Assembly (NCBI GenBank): GCA_000697055.1
Contig: JNDT01001030.1
Span: 1 to 64,000 of the forward strand
Reading direction: 5' to 3'
Length of the DNA: 64,000 bases
DNA from: Saksenaea vasiformis B4078
Lineage: Eukaryota > Mucoromycota > Mucoromycetes > Mucorales > Saksenaeaceae
The position numbers and the translations under genes were made by a program. The notes beneath the pieces are model-generated. The model saw only the letters and a list, made by a program, of their open reading frames with translations. It ran no database searches and was not told the origin of the DNA. Below, piece by piece: positions 2,758 through 52,290 of this stretch (positions within the stretch are counted from its first letter, which is position 1; every line of letters begins with the position of its first letter).

Positions 2758-3850
2758 CAGTGTTCGCACCGGACAAGACTTTTTGCACTTCATAACACCT
2801 TCAATGAAGCTTGCGCCCTGGCTCACAATCTACTTCATCGAGGTCGAAGCAACCATGATCGGATTCCGCAACTGGTAGCGAATCTCATAGAAATTGAGCG
2901 GATATGCACGCGTGTTGGTGACATAGACCAAGGTGTTGTTCGTCAATTTGAAGATCAGGTTAATCTCACAGACATATATTGGGATGAGCTTACAGAATGG
3001 GATGATCTGGTCATTATTGAAGACGCAATTGTTCAATGGGAATCCCAGTTTAATCAAGCACAAGATATCTCTCCTGAAGTGGCACAACTGGCAAATCTGA
3101 TGAAACAACAGATCGCTGAACTCAACGAAGCTATCAACGCTTTTACGACCATGCAGCAAAGATATAAACAGGCACAAAGAGATCATCAAGATGCTGTCTG
3201 AAGGTTTTTTGCCAATGACGCATTCGGCAATAGAGAACTTCTCGAAATATTAGTTAGTTATGTGACTCCACTGGATATTCCTGGCTACGGTGAAGGAGAA
3301 GAAGTAAGCAAGACCTTGGATACTGCGCTTGTAACACGACATATCAATTTGTTTACAAGGATGTCCCACCTTATTGCAAAATACATTGAACGGTACAGCA
3401 ACCAAGAAATACAAATAGCTAGCGATGCTCGAGTAGAGGCTACCATCAGATGGACAAGGCAGCAGATACGTGAACTTGAAGAAAATCCAAGGCTCGGAAG
3501 TCGTCGTAGAAACGGTCTGGCAAGACGACTGCTTGGTGCAATTAACAGTGTTCAAGCACTGGACAGTGCTCGAATGAACTACATTAGTGACGCATAGTTT
3601 AATCAATTGCAAGAACTAGTTACTACCACGCAAGAACAGACCCAAATCTCGAAGATTTATGGAAAACCCTGATGCGAACCAAGGGTTTTTTGATCAATGC
3701 CTTCGGCCAGACATTTTCACAGTGGCACATCAGCAACGCTTGTTCAGCGTTGTGCCTAAACCTGGTTTTACCAAGAAATATGCGACGATTGACGATCAAA
3801 CTTGTGAAACATTACTTCGACATATTTATATTTTATATCAACTTTACTAA
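2758..3850 (+). pseudogene. Decayed long gene, family not recognised
   Basis: One forward frame stays protein-like from just after a CAG at 2758-2760, a possible splice acceptor. It runs to a TGA at 3199-3201, continues in the same frame to a TAG at 3595-3597, and passes into the next frame near 3658 for about 60 more residues. The composition is that of a soluble alpha-helical protein: many Glu, Gln, Ile and Leu, a helical stretch at 3070-3190 and an Arg-rich stretch at 3430-3540. At least two stops and one frameshift rule out an intact product. The decay pattern suggests a relic gene or a domesticated or dead mobile-element gene. I see no catalytic motif that would name it. Confidence 0.4.
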
Positions 3851-12600: not shown

Positions 12601-13170
12601 TACTGCTTATTGAATGAATTTTTACGCTACTCTATGTAAATTTCGGCATCTATCAAGAACTAGTTTTGCGCTAAGGGAGGAATGAAATACGTGGTTATCA
12701 TTATATAAATCGGCGATAAGATAATACTGTACTCACAGCAACTTGGTCACCAGATGAAGGATGTAAGAATGAGTGACAACTGTGCATATGAATGGATATC
12801 ATTTCACTTACCGAATGTGACAAGAGGGAGCTCACTCAAGGTCGTTCGAAGAGAGGTCTTGTAGGCTAAAATATAAATATGGAGAATGAATGATCCTGTA
12901 TACGTTTTTTGAGGAGTCGACATCCTTACCGGGATGTTTTTTTTTTTGGAAAGAACAGAGCCAAAGACAAGAGAAGGAAATACGTGCGTCCCTTTAAATA
13001 CGAATCATTTTGGGTGGAGCCTGTCCTTATCGTGAGACGTTTTTACTGCTTCCGATGGATCCTGGAAATCCATCACTGAAGTACATCAATGCAAGACTCA
13101 GGTCATTGAGGCGCGAACTATTCCTTGGATCAACGCAAAACGATTTACTTCCCAGCGCAAAGACGCATCG
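12601..13170 (+). repeat. Dispersed repeat family, copy A
   Basis: Shares ordered, diverged blocks with the copies at about 17.9, 21.7 and 51.6 kb. The blocks are a 5' block around TACTGCTTATTGAATGA and TTTTTACGCTACTCT, a CAACTTGGTC block, ATCCTTACCGGGATG (12925-12940), AGAGCCAAAGACAAGAG, and a TATA-like CCCTTTAAATACG near 12991-13003. After the TATA-like box comes an ORF-like segment starting ATGGATCCTGG near 13054. Part of its translation (NARLRS.RRELFLG) is echoed in copy C (NTRLRS.AREIFFG). It could be a solo LTR, a nonautonomous element, or a promoter plus remnant of a small gene family. Confidence 0.65.
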
Positions 13171-17889: not shown

Positions 17890-18150
17890 ATGCATATTTA
17901 AAGGGAGCCCTTCTTTTTCCTTTTTTTCTTCTTCTTTGGCTCTGTTGAAACAAACATCCCCGGTACGGATGTTGACTTTATTGCATATCCAGGATCACTC
18001 ATTTTCTTGTATACCGTTTAGGCTACATGACCGCTGTCCCGAACCGTCTTGCCCGTGTTGGTGCTTTATGCCCACACTAAAAGTACGTCTCTTCAGAGAC
18101 GCAAGTTTTATTTAATGTAGCGTAAAAAGTGATTCAATAAACAGTACTCT
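17890..18150 (-). repeat. Dispersed repeat family, copy B (inverted, shorter)
   Basis: Reverse complement of the blocks seen in copies A, C and D. In order on the minus strand they are ACTGTTTATTGAATCA plus TTTTTACGCTAC and AATAAAACTTGCG, then CAAGACGGTTCGGGACAG, CATCCGTACCGGGGATG, AGAGCCAAAGAAG and a TATA-like CCCTTTAAATATG. The middle portion found in copies A, C and D is missing. Best match is copy D at 51.6 kb. Confidence 0.7.
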
Positions 18151-33304: not shown

Positions 33305-33918
33305 TCAAAAACGTTTACAGAATGCTGTACAAACGCATGGAGATGATTGGGAGGCAGCTAGGTCCTCCTTCTCCTCAAACTTACCACGCTTGACTTTGTT
33401 CTTAACTATTTCCCAAGACTGCTCGATTGGGTTGAGCTCTCGAGAATAGGGTAGAAGATAAATAGGCTTATAGCCTTTCCTAGTTATAAGTTCATCTATT
33501 TCTTTAGCAATGCGAGTAGACGCATTATCCACAACTGCGTCATGGCCCTTCATCTCAGGGAGACAGTCTATATCATCCATAGTTTTCTCGAGAAATACAA
33601 GGTAATGGCCAGTAACAGTACCTCTAAGCACAGACTTTTTGTTATTATATGGCGTTTTTCTTTTGCGATTATAAAAATCGATCTTGATGCCCTTAGACCA
33701 TTCCTCTTGGGGGTTTCGAAGCTCCATGGATACGACAAATTTAGAAGAAATGGCACCAAAATCGTATGAGATACTGCTCTCGTAGAGGGAGTGGTTACAA
33801 TAGCTGGTTTTCCTTTTTCAGCCCAACCACCTGAAGGTCGCATGTTGATATTGAAAGCAGATTCATCTACAAATATGCAGTTTTCAAGATAACTCACTGC
33901 GCGTGCTACTTATCCCAG
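33305..33918 (-). pseudogene. IS630-type transposase, C-terminal catalytic half (interrupted)
   Basis: Continues the split transposase: SYLENCIFVDESAFNINMRP carries the first catalytic Asp, and KGHDAVVDNAS the second, with a deletion replacing the usual PxH. LLPYSRELNPIEQSWE carries the Glu. A frameshift lies near 33,715-33,730 between the two halves (the frame ending SYPWSFETPK and the frame containing RNPQEEWSKG). A further frame change after EKEDLAAS precedes a C-terminus readable as HSVNVFEMCL. Inactive. Confidence 0.8.
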
Positions 33919-44264: not shown

Positions 44265-45853
44265 ATGTCAGGCAGAGTAGCCGCAGCGCTGAAGAAGGAA
44301 AAACAACCGACCACCCATTCAGCCAAAGGATTTTCCGATCTTGGAGTCGATGAATGGTTGGTAGACACTCTGAAATCCATGCAGATCCGGCGACCAACCG
44401 AGATCCAGCAGGCATGCATTCCTCCTATTCTCGCAGGTTCGGGCAAAACCCAATACACAAAGAATCTCAGCTAACATGATGTATCGATGTTAAAGGAAAG
44501 GATGTGATTGGTGGTGCAAAGACTGGTTCCGGTAAAACTGCTACATTTGCTCTACCAATTTTGCAAAAGCTGTCCGAGGATCCCTACGGTGTTTTCGCTT
44601 TGGTACTCACACCAACTAGGTAAAAAAAATATTTAGTGTAATGATGAGCCGTATAATGACCCATTCAATAGAGAGCTTGCATTTCAAATTGCTGAACAGT
44701 TCCGTGTACTGGGCAAAAGTATGGGTCTTAAAGAATGTGTCGTCGTTGGTGGCATGGGTAAGTTTGATTATGCGTCAAATGAGCTGTATAATTTAATGAA
44801 TGTGGTTTGTAATAGATATGATGAAGCAGGCTTTAGAGCTTTCTAAGAAGCCGCATGTCATTATTGCTACTCCCGGCCGTTTACGAGACCATGTTCAAAG
44901 CAGTTCAGGTGCGGTCTGCCTTTCTCGAGCCCGTTTCCTAGTGATGGACGAAGCAGATCGCATCCTTTCGCCAACATTTATGTCTGATCTTGAAGTGATT
45001 CTTCCTCTCCTTCCAGAAAAGCGACAGACTTTGTTATTCACAGCCACAATGACGGATTCCATTCTTGCACTTCGCGATGCCAAGGAAGATCCAAAGGAGA
45101 GACCATTTGTGCATCTATGTGACATGAGTGTTTCTACTGTCTCTAGCCTTGATCAATTGTATGTCTTTGTGCCATCGCAAGTACGAACAGTCTATCTTGC
45201 GCACATTTTACGATCCGAGGATTTCAAAGATAAGAGTGTCATCATATTTTGCGGCAGGGGCTCTACCGCTGAGATGATCACAGTCATGCTCAAAGAACTT
45301 GGCATCCGATGCACATCTTTGCACTCCGAAATGACACAGCAGCAACGACTCGACTCGCTTGGCAAGTTCCGGGCTGAAGTCGTTAAGGTGCTAATTTCCA
45401 CAGACGTCGGTAGTCGGTAAGTGGGACAAGCCTGCAGCAATTGCAGTCATTAATCGTCTCGATTCAGTGGTTTGGATATTCCCTCGGTCGAACTTGTACT
45501 GAACTATGATATACCTCGTGATCCAACTGACTATATTCATCGTGTCGGTCGTACAGCGAGAGCAGGGCGAGGCGGTAAAGCTCTGTCAATTGTCTCAGAG
45601 AAAGATGTCCAGTTAATTCAGAACATCGAAGAACGAATTAACAAGAAGATGGAAGAGTACCAGATTGCAGACAATGTAATTTTGGATGAACTTTCTGAGG
45701 TGACTACAGCGAAGCGCGTTGCAACAATGGTAAGGATTCTATAATGCAAGGAAATGATTCAACTGATACGCTATGATTTAGCATTTGCATGACACAAAGT
45801 TTGGAGAAAAGCGACATGTGAGAAAGAAAAAGAAATTAGCGGCTGCAGAATAA
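44265..45853 (+). CDS. DBP8: DEAD-box RNA helicase Dbp8 (DDX49-type)
   Basis: Nucleolar ATP-dependent RNA helicase for 18S rRNA maturation (family knowledge). Exons are 44265-44436, 44496-44619, 44672-44757, 44816-45416, 45468-45729 and 45782-45853, giving 438 aa, matching Dbp8 length. Motifs in order are the Q-motif region with FSDLGV and [15 protein letters not shown], motif I AKTGSGKT (65-72), Ia PTRELAFQ, Ib ATPGRL, II DEAD (172-175), and III FTATMT (TAT in place of SAT, usual for this group). These are followed by STDVGSRGLDIP and motif [15 protein letters not shown] (352-364). A basic C-terminal tail ([10 protein letters not shown]) follows. Assignment to Dbp8 over other DEAD-box members rests on overall length, the short tail and motif III. 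Coregulation with the PA2G4-like gene is suggested by the shared promoter. Confidence 0.92.
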
Positions 45854-46258
45854 GCCCAAATCACTCCCCTTTTTGTTTTTACCAATAGACCTATCGTGTA
45901 AATATAAAATTCAACCAGCATTTCAACATATAGTATAGTCTTCCTTGTTCGTTTTCACGACGTCTTACAAACATTTAAGTCGTTACTGTCAATGTTTGTG
46001 GATAAGATGGAGACTTATAGCTGATTAACAGGAGCTATTAATTGCTGCGTAGATATTCAAATAAGCAATACTCTTGTAGTTTCAAGTGAAATTTATGGCG
46101 GCGTGCAGCCGGGTTTTTGCAATCAGTTCTAGGTTGTCACAGCGATATGCAAGTCAATACAGCGTAGGCAAGAGCTTGAGGATAGGTCAAAGGCCCTGCA
46201 CTGACGACAAATCCGAATCAAGTACGAGATGGTACCATCAGTCTGTTCCCCAGATATA
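45854..46258. other. 3' flank of DBP8, no gene seen
   Basis: About 400 bp of AT-rich sequence up to the GTAC at the outer left edge of the inverted transposon pair. Confidence 0.5.
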
Positions 46259-47834
46259 GTACACTCTTTCCGGAAAGTAAATTCGCCCAATAACGAGAAC
46301 AAAATTCGGGTTGCACGAAAAATCAATTCGCCCTGATGGAAAATCAATTCGCCTGACGGGAGAGCAAAATTCGTATTGTACGAAATGTAAATTCGTCCTG
46401 GCTGACAAATCAGATGTCCTGCTGCCTAGAATATTTTGTAGGACAAGTCTTGGCATCTTTGGATATTTAAGAGCATACCAAATGCTCGTCTTCGTTTTAT
46501 TTCTTTTTCACAATTGCATCAGAAATCACAGATTATGAACATTCAATTCATGTTTGAAAATGGGAAAGGCTCTGTTGTCGACGAATATGGTCGACCTGAA
46601 CCAATGGATTATATTGTTGATGAGGAGCAGTTTCGTCTCGAAACGTTGAGCTCTCGTACACAATATTTAGCTCAATTGGCTCTAAAGAGCGAGAAAGAAA
46701 TAGAGACAATGCAGGTGGAAAAAGAAGTGGTAAAGCCTTGTAGTGATGTTATTATGAGGGAAACATCAGTGAAGCGAAATTATACACGCTACTGTGATCA
46801 GGACAAAGTGAGGTTCTTTAAATTGTTGTTTGAGAAGTGTTTGAGTGCGGCCACTGCTGCAAAACAACTTGGGATTCACGTTCGTACAGCACAGAAATGG
46901 GCTAAACAGTACGAGACGGATCCTGACAGCATCTTTGAGAAACGGAGAAGGACTGGTCGTCCTCGTATTCTCCATGAGGAACACAAAAACGCTATCCTTG
47001 AGTGCATTGATGACAATCCTTCCGTCGTCCTGGACGAAGTAATGAAGAAGTTAAAACAAATATTTACAGAATTAAAAGTATCCAAAACTACCTTGTTCGA
47101 TTTTGTAAAACAACATTGCAATTTGTCTCTCAAAAAAGCTCGGCTTCAACCCATAGATCGGAATAGCGAAGAAAAGATTCAAGAGCGCTTGGATTGGGTT
47201 CGTAAATGGGAAAAAACAGACATGGATTTCACGAGAAACTGTGTCTTTCTTGACGAGTCTGCTTTCCATATTAATTTGAAACGTAGTATGGCATGGTCAA
47301 GGAAAGGTACACCGGCAGTGATCACTGTTCCCAAAACACGAGCGACAACAATGACTATTTTAGGCGCGATTTCTGCTGAAGGTCTAATCAAATGCAGCCT
47401 TAGACTTCCTCAGCTTCCATACAATAAAAAGAGAAAGCGGGGAGATGGTGTTGGGCAAATAAGCAAAGGAACGGTTACAGAACACTATATCAGCTTTCTA
47501 AAAGCCACAATGGATGAAATGGACCATTATCCACACATGAAAGGTCATTATCTTGTGATGGATAATGCTCCTATCCATACATCAGATAATATCGCTAAAT
47601 ACGTAGAATCTCGCGGTTACCGCTGCGCTTATTTGCCTCCATGTTCTCCTGAGCTCAATCCAATCGAGCAATTCTGGTCAGTGGTCAAAAGCAAAGTGAA
47701 GCGCAATAAGTTTCTCGAGAAGGAAACGTTGATGACCCGGATCAGTGAAGCTTCTAGTAGCTTGAAATTAAGTGATTTTAAAGGGATTGTTAAACATTCT
47801 TATAAATGCTTGGACAAGTGTCGTAATGGGCAAG
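46259..47834 (+). repeat. Left arm of the inverted transposon pair
   Basis: Starts GTACACTCTTTCCGG. A subterminal region follows with repeated AATTCGCCC/AATTCGTCC words in Gly/Asn-like spacing (46275-46410), then the transposase gene. Ends ..CGTAATGGGCAAG at 47834. Confidence 0.9.
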
Positions 47835-47842
47835 CACTCTGA
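46535..47842 (+). CDS. IS630/Tc1-type DD34E transposase, left copy
   Basis: Cut-and-paste transposase acting on TA targets. First ATG at 46535 gives 435 aa; the frame opens upstream with TTG only. The N-terminal helix-turn-helix is at about residues 95-130 (AAKQLGIHVRTAQKWAKQY), followed by GRPRILHEEHK and a second HTH-like region. Catalytic residues are Asp240 in VFLDESAFH, Asp343 in LVMDNAPIH, and Glu378 in SPELNPIEQFW, with 34 residues between the last two (DD34E). No stop or frameshift, so the gene looks young and potentially active. The stop lies in the spacer, eight bases past the shared arm. A TATA-like ATATTTAAG occurs near 46464. Confidence 0.92.
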   Translation: MNIQFMFENGKGSVVDEYGRPEPMDYIVDEEQFRLETLSSRTQYLAQLALKSEKEIETMQVEKEVVKPCSDVIMRETSVKRNYTRYCDQDKVRFFKLLFEKCLSAATAAKQLGIHVRTAQKWAKQYETDPDSIFEKRRRTGRPRILHEEHKNAILECIDDNPSVVLDEVMKKLKQIFTELKVSKTTLFDFVKQHCNLSLKKARLQPIDRNSEEKIQERLDWVRKWEKTDMDFTRNCVFLDESAFHINLKRSMAWSRKGTPAVITVPKTRATTMTILGAISAEGLIKCSLRLPQLPYNKKRKRGDGVGQISKGTVTEHYISFLKATMDEMDHYPHMKGHYLVMDNAPIHTSDNIAKYVESRGYRCAYLPPCSPELNPIEQFWSVVKSKVKRNKFLEKETLMTRISEASSSLKLSDFKGIVKHSYKCLDKCRNGQAL

Positions 47843-48427
47843 AGAAGCTTTCTTTCTACGGAAATCAGGGTGTCTGTTTCTAAAAAAAAAAAACCGACTT
47901 ATTGAAATGGATCCGTTTACGTTTCTTTTTCTTTTCTCTCATTGGCTGAATCTTTAAAAATATTACGTTTACGTTTACGTTTCCGTTTACGTTTCCGTTT
48001 ACGTTTCCGTTTACGTTTACGTTTACGTTTCCGTTTACGTTTCCGTTTACGTTTACATTTACGTTTACGTTTCCGTTTACGTTTCCGTTTACGTTTCCGT
48101 TTACGTTTACGTTTACGTTTACGTTTCACTTTATTATTTTTCCCATGACAACGCCAACTTTTCAAATTTCCTTTGAACGAAGACCGGGAACGGACACGAC
48201 AACTAAAAATCTTCTGAAACATCCGGAAGTCAAAGACATTGTAACTAAGGCAGTCGCAGGTGTTGATGGCGATGCCTATATAATTGGAGATTCTGAATGG
48301 GCGGACGGCACACAATCTGATGTACTATACGCTCCCAAGGATGAATCACTTGGGCATGCCCCAATTATCGTTGAAGTGCAGCATTCAGTGAACTTTGCCT
48401 TTGTCAATCGATCAATCAGGTATTGTA
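47835..48427. other. 593-bp spacer between transposon arms
   Basis: Single-copy sequence held between identical inverted arms. Contains a poly-A run (47881-47892), the TTTACG/TTTCCG array, and the start of a host-type coding sequence. Confidence 0.8.
47962..48127 (+). repeat. Hexanucleotide array TTTACG/TTTCCG
   Basis: About 27 tandem six-base units, mostly TTTACG with interspersed TTTCCG and one TTTACA. The six-base period keeps several frames open (Leu-Arg-Phe-Arg or Lys-Arg repeats), which creates artefact ORFs on both strands. It ends 18 bp before the ATG of the following coding fragment. Confidence 0.9.
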
Positions 48428-48462
48428 CTTGCCCATTACGACACTTGTCCAAGCATTTATAA
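48145..48462 (+). pseudogene. 5' fragment of host gene, possible PD-(D/E)XK nuclease-like, cut by transposon
   Basis: Opens with ATG. About 94 codons look genuine, up to the arm boundary at 48427: MTTPTFQISFERRPG, VDGDAYIIGDSEW, then SDVLYAPKDESLGHAPII and VEVQHS, ending NRSIRYC. The spacing of the acidic residue in SDVLY and the EVQ triad recalls PD-(D/E)XK folds such as Rpn-type and Mucoromycota-specific families. That link is tentative. The frame then runs into reverse-complement transposon and stops. No continuation is found after 50003, so only the 5' part survives here. Confidence 0.6.
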
Positions 48463-49727
48463 GAATGTTTAACAATCCCTTTAAAATCACTTAATTTCAA
48501 GCTACTAGAAGCTTCACTGATCCGGGTCATCAACGTTTCCTTCTCGAGAAACTTATTGCGCTTCACTTTGCTTTTGACCACTGACCAGAATTGCTCGATT
48601 GGATTGAGCTCAGGAGAACATGGAGGCAAATAAGCGCAGCGGTAACCGCGAGATTCTACGTATTTAGCGATATTATCTGATGTATGGATAGGAGCATTAT
48701 CCATCACAAGATAATGACCTTTCATGTGTGGATAATGGTCCATTTCATCCATTGTGGCTTTTAGAAAGCTGATATAGTGTTCTGTAACCGTTCCTTTGCT
48801 TATTTGCCCAACACCATCTCCCCGCTTTCTCTTTTTATTGTATGGAAGCTGAGGAAGTCTAAGGCTGCATTTGATTAGACCTTCAGCAGAAATCGCGCCT
48901 AAAATAGTCATTGTTGTCGCTCGTGTTTTGGGAACAGTGATCACTGCCGGTGTACCTTTCCTTGACCATGCCATACTACGTTTCAAATTAATATGGAAAG
49001 CAGACTCGTCAAGAAAGACACAGTTTCTCGTGAAATCCATGTCTGTTTTTTCCCATTTACGAACCCAATCCAAGCGCTCTTGAATCTTTTCTTCGCTATT
49101 CCGATCTATGGGTTGAAGCCGAGCTTTTTTGAGAGACAAATTGCAATGTTGTTTTACAAAATCGAACAAGGTAGTTTTGGATACTTTTAATTCTGTAAAT
49201 ATTTGTTTTAACTTCTTCATTACTTCGTCCAGGACGACGGAAGGATTGTCATCAATGCACTCAAGGATAGCGTTTTTGTGTTCCTCATGGAGAATACGAG
49301 GACGACCAGTCCTTCTCCGTTTCTCAAAGATGCTGTCAGGATCCGTCTCGTACTGTTTAGCCCATTTCTGTGCTGTACGAACGTGAATCCCAAGTTGTTT
49401 TGCAGCAGTGGCCGCACTCAAACACTTCTCAAACAACAATTTAAAGAACCTCACTTTGTCCTGATCACAGTAGCGTGTATAATTTCGCTTCACTGATGTT
49501 TCCCTCATAATAACATCACTACAAGGCTTTACCACTTCTTTTTCCACCTGCATTGTCTCTATTTCTTTCTCGCTCTTTAGAGCCAATTGAGCTAAATATT
49601 GTGTACGAGAGCTCAACGTTTCGAGACGAAACTGCTCCTCATCAACAATATAATCCATTGGTTCAGGTCGACCATATTCGTCGACAACAGAGCCTTTCCC
49701 ATTTTCAAACATGAATTGAATGTTCAT
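48276..49727 (-). CDS. IS630/Tc1-type DD34E transposase, right copy, read-through tail
   Basis: Same protein as the left copy across the whole shared arm, ATG at 49727, with the DD34E catalytic triad intact. At the inner edge (48428) the left copy's stop is absent. The frame instead runs 51 codons into the antisense strand of the spacer and the host-gene fragment before stopping at 48276, adding an unrelated tail to the transposase. Whether the extended protein is active is unknown. Identity with the left copy implies a recent duplication or ongoing gene conversion. Confidence 0.88.
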   Translation of the reverse strand: MNIQFMFENGKGSVVDEYGRPEPMDYIVDEEQFRLETLSSRTQYLAQLALKSEKEIETMQVEKEVVKPCSDVIMRETSVKRNYTRYCDQDKVRFFKLLFEKCLSAATAAKQLGIHVRTAQKWAKQYETDPDSIFEKRRRTGRPRILHEEHKNAILECIDDNPSVVLDEVMKKLKQIFTELKVSKTTLFDFVKQHCNLSLKKARLQPIDRNSEEKIQERLDWVRKWEKTDMDFTRNCVFLDESAFHINLKRSMAWSRKGTPAVITVPKTRATTMTILGAISAEGLIKCSLRLPQLPYNKKRKRGDGVGQISKGTVTEHYISFLKATMDEMDHYPHMKGHYLVMDNAPIHTSDNIAKYVESRGYRCAYLPPCSPELNPIEQFWSVVKSKVKRNKFLEKETLMTRISEASSSLKLSDFKGIVKHSYKCLDKCRNGQVQYLIDRLTKAKFTECCTSTIIGACPSDSSLGAYSTSDCVPSAHSESPII

Positions 49728-50003
49728 AATCTGTGATTTCTGATGCAATTGTGAAAAAGAAATAAAACGAAGACGAGCATTTGGTATGCTCTTAAATATC
49801 CAAAGATGCCAAGACTTGTCCTACAAAATATTCTAGGCAGCAGGACATCTGATTTGTCAGCCAGGACGAATTTACATTTCGTACAATACGAATTTTGCTC
49901 TCCCGTCAGGCGAATTGATTTTCCATCAGGGCGAATTGATTTTTCGTGCAACCCGAATTTTGTTCTCGTTATTGGGCGAATTTACTTTCCGGAAAGAGTG
50001 TAC
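48428..50003 (-). repeat. Right arm of the inverted transposon pair
   Basis: Reverse complement of 46259-47834 with the same length. The outer edge is ..GGAAAGAGTGTAC at 50003. Confidence 0.9.
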
Positions 50004-50324
50004 ACATCAATTTTAAAAATTAGCCAAACTTATGACGTACAGGGCAACTACTGCGACGATATATATGATGCGTTGTGCGGTCTCTGCACATGCCCTTGTG
50101 ATTCCCATCCGTCCTGAAATACTATCGACTTTCGGCACTGGCGTATTTTTTTTTTTTTTTTTGGGATCAGTGTCCCATATGATATGATCATTATATACCA
50201 TTCAATATCATCGTAGATATATGGGTTCCAATGTCTCATGAATATTTGCAGATATAGTAACATTTTTCCGGAGTATCCTCCTCATATCTAACACCAAACT
50301 CTAACAAATTCTAGTATACAACGT
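50004..50324. other. Intergenic with 17-T run
   Basis: A run of about 17 T at 50146-50162 may mark an old poly-A insertion or a slippage site. No gene was seen. Confidence 0.5.
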
Positions 50325-50754
50325 TCATTTTTTTGCCTTCGCCTCCAGAAGCTCTTTTGCCTCGTTGATCTTCGTTGCCAAGTAAGGTGATCCACCACGA
50401 TCGGGATGATTCAACAACATAATACGACGATGAGCTTCCTTGATCTTTGGTTTGGTCGCCTGCGCCTCCCTAAATAAGAGTTGCAAGGTCAATACATAAT
50501 TAGGACACCACTGACCGAATTTTACCTCAGGCCAAGAATTAAAGCGGCCTCACGCTTGCTCATTTTCGCTTCAAATCCTCCTTTATAGAATTTCGACATT
50601 CGAGGTGCTTTTGGCATTTTTTGATACTCTTGAAATGCCCGCAATCCAAGACGACCGGCAGTGGCAGCACCAGCAACTGCAAATCCAATAATAATAGGTG
50701 TAGACTATACGCCAAACGTAAGACGAGATTCATGCAACTTGCGACACATACCAT
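50325..50754 (-). CDS. PAM18: Pam18/Tim14, J-protein of the mitochondrial import motor
   Basis: Inner-membrane J-protein that stimulates mtHsp70 at the TIM23 channel. Exons are 50754-50752 (the ATG alone), 50704-50526 and 50469-50325, giving 108 aa, a normal length. After the start comes [19 protein letters not shown], the single membrane segment (about residues 2-21). GLRAFQ and [20 protein letters not shown] follow, then the truncated J-domain with the essential HPD (82-84, [19 protein letters not shown]). The first exon carries only the initiator codon; the same arrangement is common in fungal PAM18 genes. Its 3' end faces the transposon pair. Confidence 0.93.
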
Positions 50755-51425: not shown

Positions 51426-51580
51426 CAAATTTTGGCTCAAAAGTCATACGTGTAATCCTTCTGAGAAGCTTATTTTTTCACATTCCTCTTTTGCGTCGCT
51501 ATTCCTTTTGTAGTTTGTCGTACTTCAAGTCGATTGTCAGAGTACAGAAGTTTTATAGCATCTGACCTATTACCGCCATA

Positions 51581-52290
51581 CTATTTATTGAATCATTTTT
51601 TACACTACTCTAAATAAAATCTTGCGCCTCTGAAGATCCTGGTTTGCACTACAGAAAAATTGAATATGCGGTGGTTAGTATATTAATTTTACGCCAGAAG
51701 ATTAATCAACTTACGTGAACTTGGTCTCTCCAGTCGACACAAACTTATTCGAGCAGCGTAAAAAATAACTCATGGTTAGTAAATGAAAGGTGCTTTGATG
51801 CCTTCTACTTAACTCCCCGAAGGGTAATACCGTGGTAACACGGGACCCAACCCCGCACCGAAGCAGTGGGGCGGGTGGAGGTTGGTGGCCGGCGTCTAGG
51901 AGCAGAGGACTTCAAGCGATCCAGCGTCTGGTGATCTATCACGAAAAAAAAATCAGTGATACTGAGTATGATAACGTTTACTCACTGAAATGGTGAACGT
52001 TGGTTACACACACGGCCAAGACGGTTCGGGACAGAGATCGTGCAGCCTAATCAAGAGGCAGAAAACATGAATAATCTTGCAGATGTAATGTATTGACATC
52101 CTTACAGGGGACGTCCAAGAGTAACAAAGCCGAAGAATAAAAAATAATTCATGCGTCTCTTTGAATACGGATGATTCTGGTATGAGCTCACCATGAAACA
52201 TTTCTATGGCTTGTGATACCGTGTAAAGAAACTGCCACTGATGCAATAAATCATCTCAACGTCAAAAGAACGTACTGCTTTTGGCGGAAC
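51581..52290 (+). repeat. Dispersed repeat family, copy D
   Basis: Most complete match to copy B: TACTATTTATTGAATCA, TTTTTACACTACTC and AATAAAATCTTGCG with CCTCTGAAG. Next come AACTTGGTCTC, GGTTAGTAAATG with CTTTGATGCC (as in C), CAAGACGGTTCGGGACAG, CATCCTTACAGGGGACG, CAAAGCCGAAG and GCGTCTCTTTGAATACGG. An extra G/C-rich segment (51820-51930) is present only here. Confidence 0.7.

Follow-up and report, generated by a model that had tools for sequence, protein, structure and literature searches.

Composite transposons of the Tn5 and Tn10 kind, found in bacteria, consist of two inverted insertion sequence (IS) arms around a central cargo, and they move by their outer ends while each IS keeps its inner end. 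Such transposons are known mostly from bacteria and are regarded as opportunistic creations (PMC9587614). Here we describe a locus in the fungus Saksenaea vasiformis B4078 (assembly GCA_000697055.1) at which two DD34E transposase genes of the Tc1/IS630 type lie in the arms of a long palindrome. The window, meaning the whole stretch of DNA analysed, comprises positions 1 to 64,000 of contig JNDT01001030.1 on the forward strand, and the palindrome occupies 46,259 to 50,003 within it. We put at about 75% the probability that the locus represents a DD34E Tc1/IS630 transposon of a palindromic, composite type in which the inverted pair is itself the mobile unit. The likeness to Tn5 and Tn10 lies in the inverted, near-identical, transposase-bearing arms, the use of outer ends and the central cargo. 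The differences are that no inner ends were detected in the clade to which the window element belongs (0 of 13 copies) and that the plan is found repeatedly across a eukaryotic clade whose members have diverged. Two IS modules around a cargo, each with two ends, are found at one other locus of this genome (C445, below) and not in the window clade. Copies outside the window are referred to by the handles of their contigs (C662 and so on).

The closest published element found is Tc1-MP1 of Mucor piriformis, a DD34E element of 1,688 bp with a transposase of 434 amino acids (aa) and terminal inverted repeats (TIRs) of 141 bp, and the same source gives TACA/.../TGTA excision sites for its companion Tc1-OP1 (Chang et al. 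2023, PMC9977792). Both elements are DD34E, both are from Mucorales and the transposases are of nearly equal length (434 aa against 435 aa here). By its published description Tc1-MP1 has one gene between its TIRs, whereas in the present family complete units have two inverted genes and a centre, and no 3' terminus was found in the copies tested. Foldback elements are also similar, although the transposase of Galileo lies between the TIRs and not inside them. Galileo, of the P superfamily, has TIRs of up to 1.2 kb with internal repeats (PMC2775673), so that long TIRs with internal repeats, and an expectation of stem-loops, are common to both. In the window unit long inverted repeats likewise make up most of the element (an arm of 1578 of ~1872 nucleotides (nt) per half) and subterminal repeats are present, but the arms are not gene-free, each holding a transposase gene. 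KolobokP is a composite-like lineage of eukaryotic DNA transposons with a nuclease gene in its internal region (Kojima and Bao 2022, PMC9587614). It differs in having direct long terminal repeats, an internal transposase of the Kolobok superfamily and a His-Me finger nuclease, whereas here the repeats are inverted and the transposase is DD34E with a DDE_3 domain. In searches of open-licence PMC text we came upon no Tc1 element whose inverted repeats each contain a transposase gene.

A repeat search of the window gave the arms as an inverted pair of 1579 nt (46259-47837 and 48425-50003) with 100% complementarity. Measured from the TA inward, each arm has 1578 nt (46260-47837 and 48425-50002) with a single mismatch 3 nt off the inner edge, and the 1573 nt inside the TA do not differ at all; a match of such length cannot have arisen by chance. 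An initial annotation of the stretch had described exactly such a pair of equal-length arms, with the outer termini as perfect inverted repeats and TA outside, and this holds at both ends; its spacer of 593 bp measures 587 nt. The outer context is ...ATATAG-TA-CACTCTTTCC on the left and GGAAAGAGTG-TA-CACATC on the right. The parts of the unit are as follows.

46260..46261, no strand: TA target dinucleotide at the left outer edge, with a matching TA edge in the C662, C599 and C24 units.
46262..46400, plus strand: left outer terminus (CACTCTTTCCGGAAAGTAAATTC...) with degenerate subterminal repeats of 18-41 nt, from the repeat search.
46262..47837, plus strand: left arm, the portion common to the right arm, from which it does not differ over the 1573 nt inside the TA.
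46535..47842, plus strand: intact left-arm DD34E transposase gene of 435 aa (a 442-aa open reading frame (ORF) if the TTG at 46514 is the start).
47838..47905, plus strand: native 3' continuation of the left arm, gone from the right arm, from BLAST matches to the C662, C511 and C232 copies and their alignment.
47963..48126, no strand: hexanucleotide satellite (TTACGT)n in 27 copies, from tandem-repeat analysis.
48145..48423, plus strand: truncated central gene, N-terminal 93 aa with the motif D-x17-E-x-Q; its identity to the C391 protein is 41% across 88 aa.
48276..49727, minus strand: right-arm transposase ORF of 483 aa, its final two residues and stop gone and read-through crossing the junction.
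48424..48425, no strand: putative deletion junction, at which the central gene is fused to the final codons of the transposase gene in the right arm.
48425..50000, minus strand: right arm, without its inner side.
50001..50002, no strand: TA target dinucleotide at the right outer edge.

The catalytic residues of the transposase are, by position, D240, D343 and E378, and the 34 residues between the last two make it DD34E. Pfam domain PF13358 (DDE_3) matches at 7e-27, in agreement with the IS630 DD34E identity given initially. The closest named transposases, among the best 120 of 497 matches, are from Rhizopus, Rhizomucor and other Mucoromycotina, which points to a probable Mucorales host, and no relative was present in viral-contig and plasmid sequence collections. 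In the usual IS630/Tc1/mariner plan TIRs surround one transposase gene, whereas here the gene sits inside the inverted repeats. By its transposase and TA target we place the window element in IS630/Tc1/mariner, and by its architecture we regard it as a variant.

The same plan recurs elsewhere in the genome. A search of the 38.7-Mb assembly (666 contigs) with the window arm gave at least 50 scored matches, and 30 regions (L021-L050) were examined closely. A facing partner arm, or the remnant of one, is present in seven of them (C662, C599, C24, C119, C440, C522 and C160). The inverted arms extend over 1781 nt in C662 (99.7% identity), 1786 nt in C599 (99.0%) and 1623 nt in C24 (99.9%), and those of C522 are 98.2% identical; across the six better-kept sister units the identity between arms is 98.2-99.9%. 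The window arm, compared with these units over the longest matching stretch, is 83% identical to C662, 78% to C522, 72% to C119, 69% to both C599 and C440, and 67% to C24. The C119 and C440 units are cut by contig ends, C522 is partly deleted, and C160 is a decayed pair with a weak terminus (E 0.03) and a transposase N-terminus. C654, examined since it holds both a transposase and a central gene, is another decayed pair in which the central gene lies between arm remnants. Tandem arrays are found at the centre or inner arm edge of C662, C599, C24 and C445 as well, and none is present in the C119 centre.

Evidence for movement of the whole unit comes from its insertion sites. TA-CA stands at both outer ends in all four complete units. 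The C24 palindrome, of 6.6 kb, has TA on both outer sides, and when its flanks were joined with one TA and compared with the genome 12 matches were obtained, 11 of which cover one flank or part of one. The match on C535 spans the junction, with 51 nt at 96% made up of 37 nt on the left, a single TA and 12 nt on the right. This empty site indicates that the entire C24 palindrome was inserted as one unit, and hence that its outer ends mobilize it; of the two units for which such a site was sought, C24 and the window unit, only C24 gave one. Together with the sister units it supports the proposal made initially that the 3.7-kb stretch between the TA dinucleotides could move as one.

Why two arms should be needed is suggested by the ends of single copies. 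The terminus profile places the element terminus 5' of the transposase gene, and a convergent 3' terminus was found, by this profile and by self-comparison, in none of the 13 unpaired copies that keep the 3' end of the gene together with 1.4-3.0 kb of flank. Since no such 3' terminus was found, one arm alone should not move, and a functional element would need two arms. The initial annotation was thus correct that only the 5' terminus is present, and as the same is true of the family copies tested, this is not damage to the window copy. It had also proposed a search for full elements with both ordinary ends, and two were found outside the window clade, C189 (1.7 kb with 102-nt TIRs) and C339. 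In the tree these two group apart, together with C150, C389, C557 and C445, and the palindromic C599, C24, C119 and window units fall inside a clade of 21 rows (support 95/93), the first fork of which separates C599. Single-arm or cut members of this clade are C271, C391 and a second C662 copy. C445 (L052, C445:79068-82738), the sister of the ordinary element C189, is a palindrome as well, but its halves are ordinary DD34E elements in which the inner ends survive. A TAGCCG satellite lies at its centre, and the DNA between the two elements is also mirrored. C445 may represent a first step towards the palindromic structure.

The inner edges of the window arms had been described as breaking at the same base, so that independent insertions would need an identical 3' truncation twice. 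In fact the family sequence of the left arm continues past 47837, matching C662 at window 47702-47856 (88%), C511 at 47703-47905 (84%) and C232 at 47703-47889 (89%). Only the right arm is cut. An ordinary element with a native 3' end ..GGGCAAG at both insertion sites, the finding that was to have overturned the initial interpretation, is not what is seen, as the family sequence runs further. The window central gene ends at its residue 93, where the right arm is cut. One deletion in a larger palindrome, which would have taken away the inner flank of the right arm together with the 3' portion of the central gene, would account for both losses and makes a double truncation unnecessary. The window copy thus looks like an internal-deletion derivative of the palindromic form common to C599, C24 and C119. 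With an intact transposase on the left and perfect termini on both sides, it looks able to move.

The arms of a unit stay alike even when the gene in them does not function. The C662 transposase is a pseudogene with four frameshifting indels, all of them common to both arms, yet no more than 6 of the 1781 positions distinguish one arm from the other. Where mismatches between arms do occur most lie near the outer ends: across five units (window, C662, C599, C24 and C522) 11 arm mismatches were counted, eight of them in the outer 30 nt (six of these eight from C522), and in none of 100,000 shuffles did as many as 8 of 11 fall there. The count leaves out C119 and C440, which do not have the outer ends of both arms, C445, which belongs to the other group, and C602; it also leaves out the satellite of C599 and any mismatch at an inner edge, since these can result from alignment overrun. 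The arms are most likely kept near-identical by gene conversion, to judge from this pattern. A possible alternative, which leaves the mobile unit unchanged, is that the arms are re-equalized during transposition, one arm being copied onto the other in a fold-back intermediate. This would equally explain the 99-100% identity and the shared lesions. However, copying during transposition should equalize the outermost bases too, whereas conversion in place predicts mismatches at the edge, and with eight of the 11 mismatches found there (mostly from C522) we regard copying during transposition as somewhat doubtful.

The centre of the fuller units holds a second gene. In C599 it encodes a 480-aa protein with C2H2 fingers, which has 20 database relatives from Rhizopus, Dichotomocladium, Phycomyces and other Mucorales; the closest are 83-92% identical, and the last covers only 12% of the protein. 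RPD is invariant and E344 nearly so in the 16 of these relatives that were aligned. The central genes of C24, C405, C582 and C602 are related to that of C599, and all five have RPD...E[VI]K, a motif of the form PD-Xn-(D/E)-x-K; the central gene of C511 is decayed and has lost the E. The window gene has D...E-x-Q instead. It has a longer homologue on C391, tail-to-tail with a transposase, and these two proteins, with D-x17/18-E-x-Q, are different from the C599 type. No homologue of the C391 protein was found at E <= 0.001, and no left arm at C391 in the 3 kb beyond the stretch examined. We take both motifs to resemble those of PD-(D/E)XK nucleases. A Pfam search of the central protein gave no nuclease match, and a search of PDB sequences, with matches accepted to E = 10, gave mostly zinc-finger proteins and no recognized PD-(D/E)XK enzyme. 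An AlphaFold2 model built from 16 relatives was too poor for use (mean predicted local distance difference test score of 43). To go by its motifs, the central gene may encode a nuclease. At C405, C511, C582, C602, C391 and C146 it is tail-to-tail with a transposase in the locus DNA, one arm being seen in each, and match coordinates give the same order at C321 and C565, with C236 as the exception. For the C599 protein a transposase match lies within ~3 kb on five of the 15 contigs with a match, so that the linkage is not universal.

These observations suggest how the element may work. Each arm would supply one transposon end and one transposase gene, and the arms would face each other around a centre that in fuller copies comprises a tandem satellite and the gene with the PD-(D/E)XK-like motif. 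Transposase from either arm would bind the termini at both outer ends, cut out the entire unit and integrate it at a TA, and gene conversion from arm to arm would keep the arms alike while stopping short of the outermost bases. We suggest more tentatively, as something possible rather than probable, that the clade is self-perpetuating. Loss of the 3' end would have locked the transposase into inverted repeats, and conversion, perhaps provoked by cutting by the central PD-(D/E)XK-like nuclease, would keep the two genes mutually repaired, so that the palindrome would be a form evolved and maintained and not an accident.

Several observations weigh against the composite as mobile unit, or limit what can be concluded about it. 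The empty-site match of C24 extends just 12 nt to the right of the TA, and four longer copies of its left flank (C22, C7, C92 and C641) diverge just past the site, so that C535 alone shows the site empty. The C24 transposase has one in-frame stop in both arms. A search for the empty site, also proposed in the initial annotation, succeeded in this one case and gave nothing in the genome for the window unit, both flanks of which are single-copy. Mobility of the unit is read from the sequence of insertion sites and not from observed movement. A recognizable 5' terminus (E < 1e-3) is present in just four of the 13 unpaired copies, and these four are the strong cases of the 3'-end test. A strict terminus pattern gave 50 matches (control, 2) with just three facing pairs within 10 kb, at C24, C53 and C599; most copies are single remnants and most of these matches look like single ends, although the strict pattern does miss the known C662 pair. 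A search for further composites with the same spacer had also been proposed, and the spacer DNA of the window unit is unique in the genome. At C602 an inverted repeat of 275 nt (92.7%), at first taken for arms, proved to be a repeat dispersed over eight other of the loci examined; it is not counted as a pair, and its 20 mismatches are not used. Finally, merging of reads by the assembler could inflate arm identity, and the edge mismatches could then mark the places at which reads extend into the unique flanks. With C602 withdrawn just three mismatches within the arms, two of them in C662 and the third in C24, are left against read merging, and they speak only weakly against it; merging of the arms may in part contribute to their identity.

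Other origins for the window palindrome fit these data less well. One is a single recent event at this site, an inverted duplication or fold-back of one element that owes nothing to the structure of the family. A single inverted duplication or mobilised fold-back was the origin preferred in the initial annotation; the practically identical window arms are as expected of a fresh duplication, and the C445 pair beside its ordinary relative C189 shows that ordinary elements can yield pairs. However, the same plan is found in C662, C599, C24, C119 and C440 at up to about one-third DNA divergence from the window arm, a homologous central gene is common to C599, C654 and C24, and palindromic units lie on either side of the first fork of their clade. 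Each unit would require a duplication of its own with breakpoints at the terminus, and we consider this origin quite unlikely. Very improbable, too, is an assembly artefact, whether a chimeric false palindrome or two arms merged to a false identity. The assembler did have difficulty here, as shown by contigs that end inside arms (C216, C201, C119 and C440), and consensus merging would give ~100% arm identity. Yet the window flanks differ and each is unique, where a chimeric fold-back would mirror the flank too; the breakpoints lie exactly at TA/CACTC, the C24 flanks are contiguous in the empty site, and the right-arm truncation is confined to one arm. Two independent insertions of ordinary elements, close together and in opposite orientation, could fit C445, where both inner ends survive, though its intervening sequence is mirrored. 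For the window clade, in which inner ends were not found, in which the whole C24 unit has a single-TA empty site and in which the identical C662 arms share their lesions, such a coincidence is extremely improbable.

A different kind of proposal concerns what the window copy does now. In maize, Mu killer produces a hairpin RNA of inverted transposase sequence that triggers silencing of its family by RNA interference (RNAi). By analogy, the truncated palindrome might now be mainly a silencing locus, a long hairpin RNA, transcribed through the inverted transposase genes, triggering RNAi against the family. The anatomy by itself would suit this, as the genes converge and their sequence forms a perfect inverted repeat of 1.57 kb with a loop of 587 nt, and Mucor lusitanicus serves for the study of RNAi pathways that act on transposon RNA (PMC11943222), though that text mentions no inverted repeat, Tc1, palindrome or DNA transposon. 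As the left transposase is intact, both termini are perfect and the copy looks able to move, we think a mainly silencing role unlikely, and return to the mobile palindromic composite as the preferred reading.

Some further features of these loci deserve mention. The window unit has a DEAD-box helicase gene on its left (44800-45741) and on its right a gene with its last exon at 50325-50471 (minus strand), presumably J-domain-like. The left insertion site and terminus recur in the right flank as a 24-nt match of 83% (46251-46274 against 50249-50272), perhaps an old terminus or chance. A related transposase remnant (48% identity) lies at 33350-33757 on the minus strand. An inverted repeat of 149 nt (72%) around the C418 transposase fragment was considered as a pair and rejected as a dispersed repeat without a terminus; copies of this repeat are present in the window at 12601-12737, 18089-18146 and 51576-51688. 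The repeat of ~270 nt at C602 (L058:818-1092 and 3164-3438) recurs near transposase copies in L055, L027, L026, L043, L049, L030, L034 and L053, and in C522 it begins exactly where the left arm stops (L026:1956); this repeat may itself be a small mobile element, with insertions inside units or next to them. The left flank of C24 holds a TnpB/Fanzor-like ORF (L023:385-1236, PF07282 at the cut-off score) within a repeated element; the palindrome sits just downstream of it, and 97% copies of the 3' end of the ORF element are found on C22, C7, C92 and C641. At C216:67626-67694 the contig terminates inside an arm, and 222 nt of the adjoining flank match the right flank of the C24 unit without a difference, either as overlapping contigs or as a duplicated locus. 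The C599 unit abuts another element terminus (TACACTCTTTCC..., C599:39446-39487) with a TA common to both, and the sequence beyond this terminus, searched alone, is single-copy. At C398:13368-14834 a piece of a central gene of the window type precedes a terminus that points inward, perhaps a further decayed unit.

What appears to be new here is a TA-inserting DD34E transposon with a palindromic composite as its mobile unit, that is, a eukaryotic composite transposon. A fungal Tc1/IS630 clade appears to have taken the inverted composite as its regular form, with arms that remain alike and a central gene that recurs. Transposon annotation that expects a single gene flanked by a short TIR on each side would break up or overlook such elements. 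If the reading is true, the clade would provide a natural system in which to study the persistence of long palindromes in a eukaryote, the preservation of a selfish gene by gene conversion, and any help that a partner nuclease gives.

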